From an uncultured Pelagibacteraceae bacterium (GTDB taxonomy: Bacteria > Pseudomonadota > Alphaproteobacteria > Pelagibacterales > AG-422-B15), in the NCBI GenBank assembly GCA_902564295.1, contig CACFAO010000010.1:1-42737 (forward strand): 42,737 nt of DNA. The letters are read 5' to 3'. Shown piece by piece: positions 16,091 to 21,606 of the stretch. The translations under genes and the position numbers were made by a program. The number at the start of each line of letters is the position of its first letter. Position 1 is the stretch's first letter. The notes below the pieces were generated by a model. That model made no database searches and was not told the origin of the DNA. It worked only from the letters and a program-made list of their open reading frames with translations.

Positions 16091-17491
16091 GTGAAACGTC
16101 TATTTAAAGCAATCCTGTTTGCAAACATTTTTTTTTATATTTGCACTTCAATATCTTCAGACCCGTTACTGCCAGGTGGCAAAACCTCGAATGAGGTTCA
16201 AAATAAAAATAGTTTTTCACTGGTTTCAAGAAATTTAGGAGATAATTTAAAAATCAATTTTCTTGTAGGAAATGCTTTATTTGAGAGAATTTGGGAAGAT
16301 GCAAAATTCTCAGAAAATATTGCAAGAGATGGTTTAGGGCCTTTTTTCAGTGCTCGTTCGTGCGAAGCATGTCATATTTCTGATGGACGAGGACATTTGC
16401 CTATAGATGAATCTGATGACGCTGTATCTGTTGTTATTCAAATTTCAAAAAATCAGGACTCAATTTCAGATGGTATTAAAAATCTACCAGATCCCGTTTA
16501 CGGAAATCAAATTAGTGAATTCTCGGTTGAAAGTATTCCAAGAGAAGCGGACATTGTTATTAATTATGAATATGTTCCAATATCTTACAATGATGGTCGT
16601 ATAGTCGAATTAAGAAAGCCTGTAATTAAAATTAGAAATTTTAATTACGGAGATATCAATCAAGATACAAACTTTTCAGCAAGAATCGCACAACCAATGA
16701 TTGGGCTAGGTTTAATTGAAAACATTAGTGAAACGGATATTTTAATAAATGCAGATGTGAATGACATAAACGGTGATGGAATATCTGGAAAAGCAAATAT
16801 TGTTTGGCATAATGAAAAAAATGATTATTCCCTTGGTCGGTTTGGCTGGAAAGCATCACAGCCTACGGTTTACCAACAAACTGCTGATGCCTTTTTTCAT
16901 GACATGGGTTTATCAAATAAACTTTTTGAAAACCCATTTAACTGTACTGATGTGCAATTAAGCTGTCAAAATGCAGTCAGTGGAAATAGCGAAAACTATG
17001 ATGGCTATGAAGTTTCTAATGATCAATTGGATCTAGTGGTTTTTTATTCATCGCAACTTGGTGTGCCAGTAAGAAGAAACGCGAAAGATATAAACGTGGT
17101 TAAAGGTAAAGAAATATTTTTTAAAATTGGTTGCAATTCTTGTCATACTGAGAGTTTTGTTACAAAAAATGATAGTACGCATCAAAATTTAGCCAATCAA
17201 ATCATATACCCTTATTCAGATTTTCTGTTGCATGATATGGGTGAACAGTTGTCTGATGGTGTTTATGAATTCAATGCCAGTGGCTCTGAGTGGAGAACAC
17301 CGCCTTTGTGGGGAATAGGGTTGACATCAGTGGTATCTGCAGAATATGGATTTTTACATGATGGCAGAGCTCGAACAATTGAGGAGGCTATATTATGGCA
17401 TGGTGGGGAAGCCTCTAGAGTGTTAGAAGAGTTCAAATCTTTAGATAAAAATCAAGTAAATCAATTAATTAGCTTTGTAAGTTCCTTATAA
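16091..17491 (+). CDS. Di-haem oxidoreductase family protein (COG3488 type), exported
   Basis: This 466-residue protein begins with a Sec-type signal peptide (KRLFKAILFANIFFYICTSISS). It has two haem c attachment motifs: CEACH at 91-95, within an ARDGLGPFFSARSCEACH stretch typical of the family, and CNSCH at 348-352. A WRTPPLWGIG segment near the C-terminus, with HDGRARTIEEAILWHGGEA, is characteristic of di-haem proteins of the MauG/cytochrome-c-peroxidase superfamily. The electron partner and substrate are unknown. The start is GTG at 16091, 16 bases after scpB, with no strong Shine-Dalgarno. It directly precedes the promoter of the ferric-iron transporter operon, suggesting a periplasmic redox role connected to iron (inference). 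Confidence 0.85.
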   Translation: MKRLFKAILFANIFFYICTSISSDPLLPGGKTSNEVQNKNSFSLVSRNLGDNLKINFLVGNALFERIWEDAKFSENIARDGLGPFFSARSCEACHISDGRGHLPIDESDDAVSVVIQISKNQDSISDGIKNLPDPVYGNQISEFSVESIPREADIVINYEYVPISYNDGRIVELRKPVIKIRNFNYGDINQDTNFSARIAQPMIGLGLIENISETDILINADVNDINGDGISGKANIVWHNEKNDYSLGRFGWKASQPTVYQQTADAFFHDMGLSNKLFENPFNCTDVQLSCQNAVSGNSENYDGYEVSNDQLDLVVFYSSQLGVPVRRNAKDINVVKGKEIFFKIGCNSCHTESFVTKNDSTHQNLANQIIYPYSDFLLHDMGEQLSDGVYEFNASGSEWRTPPLWGIGLTSVVSAEYGFLHDGRARTIEEAILWHGGEASRVLEEFKSLDKNQVNQLISFVSSL

Positions 17492-17523
17492 ACTCAAATC
17501 AGTAAAGTGCGTCATATTTGCTA

Positions 17524-17574
17524 TTGATAATCATTCTCATTAATATATATAGAATGAAACTTAGTATCATTCTA
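17524..17574 (+). promoter_or_regulatory. Iron-responsive promoter/operator with two TGA-N9-TCA boxes
   Basis: TTGATA (17524-17529) and TATAGA (17548-17553) form a likely -35/-10 pair with an 18-base spacer. Overlaid on them are two TGA-N9-TCA motifs at 17525-17539 and 17555-17569, centred 30 bases apart, about three helical turns. The second sits in a perfect palindrome TAGAATGA-N9-TCATTCTA (17550-17574). TGA-N9-TCA is the published consensus of the alphaproteobacterial iron-Rhodo/RirA box. Box 1 (17526-17544) also matches 14 of 19 bases of the classical Fur box. Placement over -35 and -10 predicts repression when iron is sufficient. Confidence 0.75.
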
Positions 17575-17590
17575 AAGAAGGGAAAAATTT

Positions 17591-18622
17591 ATGAATTCAG
17601 TATTAAGATTCCTAGCAATAGCTGTAATTAGTTTTGTAACAGTTGGCAGTTCATTCGCTAAAGAAGTCAATTTGTATACGTCAAGGCACTATGATTCAGA
17701 CGATGCATTATATCAAAAGTTTACGGATGCTACTGGCATTAAAGTAAACGTTATTTCAGGTAAAGGAAAAGCATTAATGGAAAGACTTGCTTCAGAAGGA
17801 GCAAATTCTCCTGCTGATGTCTTTATTACCGTTGATGCTGGTAATCTATGGAAAGTTCAAAAAGATGGAATGTTCCAAAGTATTAACTCAAGTACTATCG
17901 ATTCAATTGTACCTGAAAATCTAAGAGGCCCAAACAATGAGTGGGTGGGAATAGCTAAACGCTCTCGAGTGATTTATTATAATCCAGTAAATGTTTCTGC
18001 AGAGGATATGGAAGGGCTTACGTATGAAGATCTTTCAGCTCCGAAATGGAAAGGCAGAGTTGCAATAAGAAGTTCTGGTAATATGTACAATCAGTCTTTA
18101 GTTGCCTCATTGATTGCTAATAATGGTGTCGATGCTACTGAAAAGTGGGCGCACAGATTTGTAGGCAATTTTGCAAGAAAACCTGAAGGTAATGACAGAG
18201 CACAAATTATGGCAGTTGCAAATGGCGAAGCAGATGTTGCTGTAGCGAATAGTTACTACATTGGTTTGATGTTATCTGGTAAAAAAGGCGAAGAACAGCA
18301 AGCTGCTGCCAGAAAAGTTGAACTTCATTTCCCAGGCCAAGATGGACGAGGAGCTCATATTAATGTAAGTGGAGCTGGTCTTATGAAAAATGCTCCAAAT
18401 GCAGGTAATGCTGTTAAGTTCATAGAGTTCTTGCTTAGTGAAGAAGCTCAAAGTCACATAGTTAATAACACTTACGAGTTTCCTATGCTTGAAGGTGTTG
18501 CACCTAGTGATTTAATAGCTCAATTTGGTTCTGGTTTTAAAGAAGATCAGACTTCAGTTGCAAGCTATGGTGAATTCAATCCTGATGCTGTTAAGTTGAT
18601 GGATAGAGTTGGTTGGCAATAA
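17591..18622 (+). CDS. fbpA: Ferric-iron ABC transporter periplasmic binding protein
   Basis: This is the periplasmic ferric-ion-binding protein of the FbpA/FutA/AfuA family, 343 residues. It has a Sec signal peptide ending near GSSFA-KEVN (residue ~24). Iron-coordinating tyrosines are visible: the paired Tyr222-Tyr223 in ANSYYIGLM, which match the FbpA iron-binding pair, and Tyr34 in SRHYDSDDALY, a FutA-class feature. GAAGGG before the ATG is a reasonable ribosome binding site. The promoter just upstream carries two iron-box-like motifs. A stable hairpin follows 16 bases after the stop and precedes the peroxiredoxin; permease and ATPase come further down. Direct import of periplasmic Fe(III) is inferred. 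Confidence 0.92.
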   Translation: MNSVLRFLAIAVISFVTVGSSFAKEVNLYTSRHYDSDDALYQKFTDATGIKVNVISGKGKALMERLASEGANSPADVFITVDAGNLWKVQKDGMFQSINSSTIDSIVPENLRGPNNEWVGIAKRSRVIYYNPVNVSAEDMEGLTYEDLSAPKWKGRVAIRSSGNMYNQSLVASLIANNGVDATEKWAHRFVGNFARKPEGNDRAQIMAVANGEADVAVANSYYIGLMLSGKKGEEQQAAARKVELHFPGQDGRGAHINVSGAGLMKNAPNAGNAVKFIEFLLSEEAQSHIVNNTYEFPMLEGVAPSDLIAQFGSGFKEDQTSVASYGEFNPDAVKLMDRVGWQ

Positions 18623-18638
18623 TTTATCGCTAACCAGT

Positions 18639-18710
18639 TTGAGGTAATTTGGCCACCGTCTCTTCTTCTCATTAGTATCCAAGGTCAAATTACCTCAACT
18701 AAACTGAGGT
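18639..18710 (+). promoter_or_regulatory. Mutually exclusive RNA hairpins between fbpA and the peroxiredoxin gene
   Basis: Bases 18639-18654 can pair with 18683-18698 to form a 16-bp stem, interrupted only by one G-U pair and a short offset at 18697-18698, around a 28-base pyrimidine-rich loop. The core arms are GAGGTAATTTGGCC and GGTCAAATTACCTC. The distal arm's ACCTCA (18692-18697) can alternatively pair with TGAGGT (18705-18710), which holds GAGG, the likely ribosome binding site eight bases before the peroxiredoxin ATG. The upstream arm repeats the ribosome-binding-site region (GAGGTAATTT versus GAGGTTATATTT). No T-run follows, so it is not a standard terminator. It could be a translational switch or a 3'-end stabiliser of fbpA mRNA. 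Confidence 0.7.
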
Positions 18711-18717
18711 TATATTT

Positions 18718-19251
18718 ATGAATAGATTACCAAATGTAACATTTAAAATTAGGTCTCAAAATGAATTTGAGACAGGGGAAATGTGTTATCTTGAGGGAGA
18801 TAAGGCTTGGATGTCAATTTCCTCTAGCGATTTATTTTCAGAAAAAAGAGTTTTAATATTTTCATTACCGGGTGCCTTTACTCCAACTTGTTCATCACAG
18901 CAATTGCCTGCATTTGATGAGAAATTTGAATCTTTTAAAAACTTAGGAATTGATGAAGTATTTTGTGTCTCCGTTAATGACTCATATGTCATGAACGCTT
19001 GGAGTAACTATATGGGCGTTAAAAATGTGCAAATGATTCCAGATGGAACGGGTCAATTTACAAGGATGATGGGCATGCTTATTAATAAAGATCATAATGG
19101 ATTCGGTATGAGGTCTTGGAGATATGCAGTTGTTGCAAATAATATGGAAATTGAACAGATGTTTATCGAGCCAGGTCTTAATGATACAGGAAATGATGAT
19201 GATCCTTATATTGAAACAAATCCTGATAATATATTAGAGTTTCTTAAATAA
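18718..19251 (+). CDS. Peroxiredoxin, Prx5 type
   Basis: This 177-residue thioredoxin-fold peroxidase has the Prx5 active site PGAFTPTC with peroxidatic cysteine Cys58, followed by the VFCVSVNDSYVMNAW segment and the catalytic arginine region MRSWRYAVV. Other cysteines are Cys23 and Cys83; whether either resolves is unclear. No glutaredoxin domain is fused. It has no signal peptide, so it is cytoplasmic and would reduce hydrogen or alkyl peroxides with a thiol donor. It is placed between the iron-binding protein and permease genes, so it is expected to be co-expressed with iron import and to limit peroxide (Fenton) damage. GAGG at 18706-18709 is the likely ribosome binding site and may be masked by RNA structure. 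Confidence 0.92.
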   Translation: MNRLPNVTFKIRSQNEFETGEMCYLEGDKAWMSISSSDLFSEKRVLIFSLPGAFTPTCSSQQLPAFDEKFESFKNLGIDEVFCVSVNDSYVMNAWSNYMGVKNVQMIPDGTGQFTRMMGMLINKDHNGFGMRSWRYAVVANNMEIEQMFIEPGLNDTGNDDDPYIETNPDNILEFLK

Positions 19252-19276: not shown

Positions 19277-20890
19277 ATGAAGTTAGATTTTTGGCAAATA
19301 ACACCAGTTGCAACATTTGCAATTTTTATTGCTCCAGTATTTATTGTGCTATTCAGTCTTGCTGGTGATTACTCTGACAACTGGACACATTTGTATAACC
19401 ATGTACTTTTTGGTTATATAGAAAATTCTATTTATTTAGTTCTTGGGGTCTCAATTATGGTTGCCATAATTGGTGTCGGCACTGCCTGGTTGGTAACCAA
19501 CTATAATTTTACAGGAAAAAATATTTTTGAATGGGCGTTAATTTTACCACTTGCTGTACCTCCTTATATACTTGCCTACACTTTCACTGGTTTATTCGAT
19601 ACCTTTGGTACTGCGAATAATTTAATAAGGGATCTTTTTGGGCTTGGTGCAGATTTTATTTTTTTTCCTAAAGTAAGAAATGTTCCTGGAGCGATTGTAG
19701 TATTTTCCTTCACTCTATATCCATATGTATATCTTGTGAGCAGAATGGCCTTTATAAATCAATCTAGATCAATTCTTGAGGCGGGTAGAACTCTTGGACT
19801 TGGTAAACTAGAAGTATTCTATAAATTAGCTGTTCCAATGATTAGACCAGCAATTATTGGGGGCCTCATGCTCGTAATCATGGAAACTTTATCTGATTTC
19901 GGAGCAGTTGATCACTTTGCCATTTCAACTTTTACAACTGGAATATTTAGAACATGGTACGGTATGTATGATATTGAAACTGCAAAGCAGTTAGCTTCAT
20001 TGTTACTCATATTTGCAATTCTATTAATTATATCTGAACGTTACTCTCGAAAAAATGCTAGATATTCAAATGCCAGCTCAGTCTTTAAGCCGCTTTATTT
20101 AACTAGGCTGAAAGGTAGTTCAAATATTTTAGCAATATTAATTTGTTTCGTTCCAATCTTTGTTGGTTTTTTATTGCCTGTGATGGAACTTGGGTACTGG
20201 GCATTTAATTACAAGTTAGATTTTTTTAATGATAAGTTTCTTACGACTGCATGGAATACATTTTACTTAGCAATAATAGCAGCCTTCTTATGTAGTTTAT
20301 TAGCTGTTCTTATAAATTTCTCAATTAGATATAAAAAAAATAATTATTTGAAGTTTATGAGTTCCTTTTTGACTGTTGGTTATGCGGTGCCAGGTTTGAT
20401 ACTTGCAATTGGTGTTATGCAGCTACTCACATTTTTAGACAGAAACATGGGAGATTACTATTTTGATTTTGTGCTTACAGGTAGTCTAGTTGGATTAGTT
20501 TTAGCTTATATAATAAAATCTTATGCGCTCTCAAGTTCTACGATTGAAGCTGGATATCAGCGTATAAATATGAGAATTGACGATGTAGCAAAAACACTTA
20601 AAACATCAGGCTGGTCTCTTTTATCATCAGTTCATTTGCCATTATTAAAAACTAGTTTTCTAACAAGCATGTTATTGGTAGTTTCAGAAGTCATAAAAGA
20701 ACTTCCCGCAACACTTATTTTGAGACCATTTAATTTTGATACATTAGCTGTATATACTTATATATATGCAGCAGAAGAAAGAATGTACGATGCTGCTGCA
20801 CCTTCTATTGCAATAGTTATGGTAGGGCTTATCCCAATAATAATATTGACTAGAATGATCAGAAGTTCTAGACCTGCATCAAGAGACTAA
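19277..20890 (+). CDS. fbpB: Ferric-iron ABC transporter permease (two-domain)
   Basis: This 537-residue inner-membrane protein has two tandem permease domains of about six helices each, as in FbpB/AfuB/FutB. Domain 1 shows the family sequence ILPLAVPPYILAYTFTGLF and an EAA-type loop ILEAGRTLGLGKLEVFYKLAVP. Domain 2 begins near residue 320 and has the corresponding loop RIDDVAKTLKTSGWSLLSSVHLPLL. VSEVIKELPATLILRPFNFDTLAVYTY near the C-terminus is highly characteristic. No Shine-Dalgarno is visible; a weak 7-bp inverted repeat (AAATAGT/ACTATTT) abuts the start codon. The ATPase gene starts two bases after its stop. Confidence 0.93.
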   Translation: MKLDFWQITPVATFAIFIAPVFIVLFSLAGDYSDNWTHLYNHVLFGYIENSIYLVLGVSIMVAIIGVGTAWLVTNYNFTGKNIFEWALILPLAVPPYILAYTFTGLFDTFGTANNLIRDLFGLGADFIFFPKVRNVPGAIVVFSFTLYPYVYLVSRMAFINQSRSILEAGRTLGLGKLEVFYKLAVPMIRPAIIGGLMLVIMETLSDFGAVDHFAISTFTTGIFRTWYGMYDIETAKQLASLLLIFAILLIISERYSRKNARYSNASSVFKPLYLTRLKGSSNILAILICFVPIFVGFLLPVMELGYWAFNYKLDFFNDKFLTTAWNTFYLAIIAAFLCSLLAVLINFSIRYKKNNYLKFMSSFLTVGYAVPGLILAIGVMQLLTFLDRNMGDYYFDFVLTGSLVGLVLAYIIKSYALSSSTIEAGYQRINMRIDDVAKTLKTSGWSLLSSVHLPLLKTSFLTSMLLVVSEVIKELPATLILRPFNFDTLAVYTYIYAAEERMYDAAAPSIAIVMVGLIPIIILTRMIRSSRPASRD

Positions 20891-20892
20891 TA

Positions 20893-21606
20893 ATGGATAT
20901 AATTCTTGAACTAAAAAATATAAAACATAGCTTCACAAGAGATAATGAAGTTTTAAAAGATATTTCTCTACAAGTAAATCGAGGTGAGATAATTACAATC
21001 TTAGGACCATCTGGATGCGGCAAAACTACATTACTAAGAATCATTGCAGGTCTAGAAGAACAGTCAGCAGGAACAGTATCGATAGATAATGAACTTGTTT
21101 CTGGGCATTTAAATCATGTAAATACTGAGGAACGAAATATTGGATTGGTTGTTCAGGAAAGAGCATTATTCCCACACCTCTCGATTGTGAATAATGTAAA
21201 ATTTGGAATAAAAGGTACGAATAAAAATAAGACCGAGAGAGCTATGAGTTTATTAAAGTTATTTAGTGTTGAGAGATATGCAAAAAACTATCCACACGAA
21301 ATATCAAGTGGTGAACAACAAAGGGTTGCTTTGGCAAGAGCTATGGCGCCAAATCCAAAAATTTTGTTAATGGATGAACCTTTTGGAGCTTTGGATAAGG
21401 AATTAAAAGTAAGATTGAGATCTGAAACAAATAAAATTCTTCGTGATAACCTCACTACAACTATCATTGTTTCTCACGATACTGAAGACGCGCTAGCAAT
21501 GTCTGATAGAGTTTTAATCATGAAAGATGGTAATTTTATTCAAAACGGCAAACCTGAAGATGTCATCTCTATAAGTTCAACCGCATCTCAAAAAAACCTT
21601 ATTTAA
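20893..21606 (+). CDS. fbpC: Ferric-iron ABC transporter ATP-binding protein, short form
   Basis: This 237-residue ATPase should energise the FbpB permease. It has Walker A GPSGCGKTT at 38-46, Walker B ILLMDEPFGALD (Asp161-Glu162) and the switch histidine in VSHDTEDALAMSD (His195). The ABC signature is ISSGEQQRVALARAM (from 137) rather than LSGGQ, with the first glycine replaced by serine and glutamine by glutamate. It ends shortly after the nucleotide-binding domain, so it lacks the ~100-residue C-terminal regulatory region present in typical ~350-residue FbpC proteins. Its stop codon lies inside the left arm of a weak terminator-like hairpin before tatA. Confidence 0.9.
   Translation: MDIILELKNIKHSFTRDNEVLKDISLQVNRGEIITILGPSGCGKTTLLRIIAGLEEQSAGTVSIDNELVSGHLNHVNTEERNIGLVVQERALFPHLSIVNNVKFGIKGTNKNKTERAMSLLKLFSVERYAKNYPHEISSGEQQRVALARAMAPNPKILLMDEPFGALDKELKVRLRSETNKILRDNLTTTIIVSHDTEDALAMSDRVLIMKDGNFIQNGKPEDVISISSTASQKNLI

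Follow-up and report, generated by a model that had tools for sequence, protein, structure and literature searches.

A predicted Fur operator upstream of the ferric-iron-binding protein gene of a SAR11-type ocean bacterium

Here we report that the ferric-iron-binding protein gene fbpA (futA) of an uncultured Pelagibacteraceae bacterium is very probably controlled by a Fur operator, predicted from the DNA to consist of one strong site (box 1) and a second, weaker one (box 2), which together would cover the core promoter. Over large parts of the ocean iron sets the limit to bacterial growth, and the regulators of SAR11-type cells are very few. An earlier note on this locus had proposed that iron-responsive operators overlie the promoter of a gene for a ferric-binding protein. 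As a prediction this proposal is supported, and the assignment of the gene product to the FbpA/FutA class is firm, with a best PDB match at E 2e-111 and a match list headed exclusively by iron-binding proteins.

The window, by which we mean the whole 42.7-kb stretch of DNA that was analysed, is AT-rich (34% G+C). Within it, fbpA (17591..18622, plus strand, 343 amino acids) opens a ferric-uptake cluster that continues on the same strand with fbpB, coding for a fused ABC permease of 537 amino acids (19277..20890), and fbpC, coding for an ABC ATPase of 237 amino acids (20893..21606). A gene for a peroxiredoxin-like protein of 177 amino acids (18718..19251, plus strand) is inserted between fbpA and fbpB, and the region 3' of fbpA differs in some relatives. 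Both boxes sit in the 99-bp intergenic gap that separates fbpA from a gene for a di-haem-type protein (16091-17491), and a candidate ribosome-binding site, AGAAGGG, follows at 17576..17582 on the plus strand. The upstream gene is retained in relatives; its product is a CxxCH-type haem protein with a weak match to a cytochrome c oxidase subunit.

Box 1 and its conservation

Attention had been drawn to this gap by two copies of the pattern TGA-N9-TCA, 30 bp apart, at 17525-17539 and 17555-17569, and both are indeed present. Two copies within a gap of this length have a probability of ~0.0014 under a first-order Markov null, and the pattern alone is unspecific, with 23 occurrences in the window. 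The informative signal is box 1, a 21-bp Fur box, rather than TGA-N9-TCA. Box 1, TGCTATTGATAATCATTCTCA, occupies 17519..17539 on the plus strand and comprises two overlapping 7-1-7 sites, its proper register starting 6 bases upstream of the first TGA-N9-TCA. It matches the extended 21-bp Fur consensus TGATAATGATAATCATTATCA at 18/21 positions, the top score in the window, for which the chance probability per 99-bp gap is ~8e-5. Against the 19-mer consensus it scores 16/19 (start 17520); the 14/19 given previously belongs to a neighbouring register and is corrected here. The first TGA-N9-TCA is the inner 7-1-7 site of box 1, TGATAATCATTCTCA (17525..17539, plus strand), which agrees with TGATAAT-N-ATTATCA at 13 of the 14 specified positions. 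When the consensus forms GATAATGATAATCATTATC / TGATAATNATTATCA were used to decide membership, box 1 qualified as a Fur box and box 2 agreed more weakly. The 19-bp core is given as a consensus in the work on the Fur structures of M. gryphiswaldense; there, a canonical Fur box may be understood as a pair of overlapping 7-1-7 repeats, with two dimers bound to them (PMC11353095).

In a comparison of 31 distinct upstream regions, the identity of box 1 to the window averages ~99%, against 70% just upstream of it and 71% in the leader. Conservation is as high in the interior, between TGA and TCA, as at the ends, and the interior bases spell a Fur box. Relatives with an FbpA of 78-80% identity retain the site, which becomes TTGATAATGATAATTATTATCATTCTCA where FbpA identity falls to 55-56% (L137, L138) and persists in deeper relatives in the form of near-perfect Fur boxes, two of which precede fbpA in a sister genus. 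As a separate observation, the sister-genus fbpC carries two tandem Fur boxes of its own, 22 bp apart (L182:6145-6187, L183:2465-2507); the window has none at fbpC, and fbpB and fbpC nearly touch there.

Genome-wide, sites with at most 3 mismatches to the 21-mer are rare and associated with iron genes. The window's own genome has only two, at fbpA and at a rubrerythrin gene, against none for a reversed control, and both precede iron genes; in 53 genomes of the family the count is 108 against 17 for the control. G037, the only member of the genus listed as 100% complete, likewise has two sites, one at fbpA and the other adjoining irr, which is the place of rubrerythrin in the window's genome. 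The exact 15-mer TGATAATNATTCTCA was found, among the matches listed, at 55 places in 43 genus genomes (control, 0). By coordinate, 32 of these places lie at fbpA; among the remaining ones, those that were inspected all precede rubrerythrin, except one in G023. Three of the 35 fbpA-bearing genus genomes lack the exact 15-mer at fbpA, one owing to a truncated contig (G007) and two owing to variant boxes (G022, G042).

Box 2, the palindrome and the core promoter

Box 2, TTAGAATGATACTAAGTTTCA, lies on the minus strand at 17555..17575, matches the Fur consensus at 15/21 positions and includes the second TGA-N9-TCA, TGAAACTTAGTATCA (17555..17569). As described before, this copy is enclosed in a perfect 8+9+8 palindrome, TAGAATGA-N9-TCATTCTA (17550..17574). 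A scan of the whole genome for the 25-bp palindrome, which had been suggested as a check, returned this copy only; the next matches have 3 mismatches and are about as frequent as those of a reversed-pattern control (15 vs 11), and the palindrome was rejected as a genome-wide motif on both counts. Nor does it hold up as the key element of the locus, being lineage-specific and degenerating in sister groups. Its right arm, TCATTCTA, is 97% conserved with respect to the window across relatives and its left arm 71%, the latter being lost in sister groups. In one sister group the position of box 2 reads TTGCTAATTATAATCATTCTAAA, nearly a copy of the TTTGCTATTGATAATCATTCTCA of box 1, and in G042, which belongs to the same genus, it reads TGAGAATGATTATTATTATCA, an 18/21 Fur box. 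Because Fur-like character is thus kept or even strengthened while the left arm disappears, box 2 is most readily understood as an additional Fur site, weaker than box 1 and presumably occupied, whose exact letters drift.

The strongest competing account, which we regard as possible though unlikely, takes box 2 to be promoter or start-site sequence that is symmetrical by chance, and box 1 to be the sole operator. A palindrome of this kind is expected in the gap with a probability of ~0.006 (first-order Markov null) and three further perfect 8+9+8 palindromes occur elsewhere in the window, which, along with the poorly conserved left arm and the mediocre consensus score of box 2, would suit such an account; the near-invariance of the right arm, the strong box at the same place in G042 and a distance between box 1 and box 2 that stays constant at 30-31 bp among relatives all speak against it.

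Considerably less probable is a division of control, with Fur acting on box 1 and another regulator (Irr, IscR or an unknown one) acting on the palindrome in this lineage. The palindrome is perfect here, its TAGAA/TTCTA ends resemble the halves of an Irr box, and the genome encodes Irr and has a near-perfect Irr box adjoining the Fur box at rubrerythrin. Yet the consensus Irr box (ICE) is TTTAGAA-N3-TTCTAAA, whereas the similar halves at fbpA stand 15 bp apart, and no Irr box was found at fbpA within one mismatch; an Irr box at this gene was accordingly rejected for its half-site spacing. The single-copy status of the palindrome, and the loss of its left arm in sister groups where the Fur-like character is kept or stronger, weigh in the same direction.

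The earlier note had also laid the boxes over a -35 and a -10 element. Its hexamers TTGATA (17524..17529, plus strand, inside box 1) and TATAGA (17548-17553) are present, the latter 18 bp from TTGATA and within a candidate -10 region, TATATAGA (17546..17553, plus strand), that is TATA-rich in nearly all relatives and also offers TATATA at 16 bp. A standard sigma-70 scan returned no plus-strand promoter in the region of box 1 and box 2, for which reason the promoter assignment, although plausible, is weak and the hexamers are kept as candidates only.

Regulators encoded by the genome

A search for homologues of rirA, irr and fur, another check put forward earlier, recovered Fur and Irr, along with Zur and IscR; RirA was not recognised. 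The window's own genome encodes three Fur-family proteins, namely Fur (L001), Irr (L002) and Zur (L003), the last two named by gene neighbourhood and motif rather than by a curated model: Irr adjoins fabA and rubrerythrin, and Zur lies beside znu-type genes. The best PDB matches of the Fur protein are Fur proteins, 5fd5/5fd6 and 4ray, the latter being Fur of M. gryphiswaldense (PMC11353095), and it keeps the DNA-contact and metal motifs TVYRT, HPDV and HHHDH. Members of the Fur family are present in 51 of the 53 family genomes. The sole Rrf2 protein of the genome is an IscR (L004), encoded in the operon cysE-iscR-sufB and containing three Cys in the arrangement C-x7-C-x6-C.

The choice left by the earlier note between a RirA-like and a Fur/Mur-like regulator therefore falls to the one it named second, since the full 21-mer is conserved. 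Control by RirA, or by a Rhodobacter-like IscR, binding TGA-N9-TCA through an Fe-S cluster, is very unlikely. The motif reported for RirA is TGA-N9-TCA (PMC8822346), present in two copies here, unspecific as it is; IscR binds iron-Rhodo boxes in Rhodobacter (PMC4618611), and an IscR is encoded in this genome. What the operator shares with the RirA IRO box and the iron-Rhodo box, however, is the terminal TGA and TCA, 9 bases apart, whereas its interior, conserved like the ends, is that of a Fur box. Across the 53 family genomes no RirA was recognised, with at most one Rrf2 match above the cut-off in each, a negative that rests on typing of the match (IscR) in the window's genome and on counts in the others; the window's genome is 79% complete, and genus members that are 100% and 99% complete likewise have one Rrf2 protein above the cut-off. 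A RirA-based reading is thus left without its regulator. The IscR is of the ordinary three-Cys type within a suf operon, not the single-Cys Rhodobacteraceae type, and a Rhodobacter-style reading is unlikely because the IscR of Rhodobacter (PMC4618611) belongs to the single-Cys type. We rejected the RirA and iron-Rhodo assignments on this regulator content combined with the conservation of the interior bases.

The predicted switch and its wider scope

Box 1 lies over the candidate -35 element and the spacer and box 2 over the expected start region, so that metal-loaded Fur would exclude RNA polymerase. We infer the following sequence of events from these positions. Under iron-replete conditions Fur-Fe2+ would sit on box 1, probably as two dimers over the overlapping 7-1-7 sites, and occupy box 2 more weakly, possibly repressing in a cooperative fashion; with the -35 region, the spacer and the start region thus covered, transcription of the ferric-uptake cluster, fbpA included, would be blocked. 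As iron drops, Fur would shed its metal and depart, allowing transcription of fbpA. In Rhizobiales some Fur orthologues have turned into manganese regulators, Mur (PMC8822346), and by this precedent the co-repressor could be Mn2+.

Published data on related bacteria bear on this Fur operator. In Ca. Pelagibacter ubique, whose genome encodes both Fur and Irr, the transcript of the homologue sfuC rises 16-fold under iron limitation (PMC2864753), and a comparative study has predicted 7-1-7 Fur boxes ahead of the Fe3+ ABC transporters of most SAR11 genomes (PMC4771312). Counting against the model, the same study found no apparent Fur box in four SAR11 genomes, among them that of the isolate HIMB59 (PMC4771312). 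The 15/21 score of box 2 in its own genome and the poor sigma-70 hexamers are weak points against it. The operator resembles the classical Fur box of E. coli and P. aeruginosa, and that of the M. gryphiswaldense structures, in 18/21 bases, in its overlap with the core promoter and in having an iron-uptake target, and as in M. gryphiswaldense an alphaproteobacterial-type Fur protein is encoded; it differs in the weakness of box 2, in the poor promoter hexamers and in being predicted from sequence. With the SAR11 boxes and P. ubique sfuC it shares the gene, a related lineage and the 7-1-7 motif, to which the present analysis adds the tracing of the boxes across the whole family, the second box and the additional target at rubrerythrin.

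The rubrerythrin promoter (L002:1380-1430; C1:60623-60661 in the window's own genome) presents an 18/21 Fur box, then an Irr box immediately ahead of a -35 element of the TTGAC type. The Irr box, TTTAGAACGATTCTAAT, is near-perfect, with 1 mismatch. Its distance from the Fur box is fixed, and the layout is shared by members of the genus and by a sister genus.

Directly 3' of the fbpA stop codon, a conserved hairpin was identified at 18639..18698 on the plus strand (z = -6.1). In its long stem, GAGGTAATTTGGCC/GGTCAAATTACCTC, 5 of the 16 pairs show compensatory changes on both sides across the genus, and its pyrimidine-rich loop of ~26 nt, ACCGTCTCTTCTTCTCATTAGTATC, is nearly invariant and occurs once in the own genome. 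An Rfam search gave no family match anywhere in the window, the hairpin included. The hairpin may stabilise the mRNA as an element at its end, or it may be a small RNA derived from the predicted Fur-controlled transcript.

A joint reading, which we put forward only tentatively, holds that the high-affinity Fur regulon of such streamlined cells has shrunk to two push-pull promoters, complemented by the fbpA-transcript hairpin acting post-transcriptionally. Fur-Fe would then repress fbpA and, from the site adjoining the Irr box, raise or de-repress rubrerythrin, while the hairpin could serve in either of the two capacities named above.

The result is largely confirmatory: the SAR11-type ocean bacterium, a streamlined one, would have an iron switch of a textbook kind. 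Mildly new are just two features, the reach of the Fur sites, which extends to two promoters, and the Fur and Irr composite at rubrerythrin. The main ferric-uptake gene of this organism would be under a predicted ordinary Fur operator, not under RirA or IscR, which gives the first regulator to test and the exact sites at which to do so.
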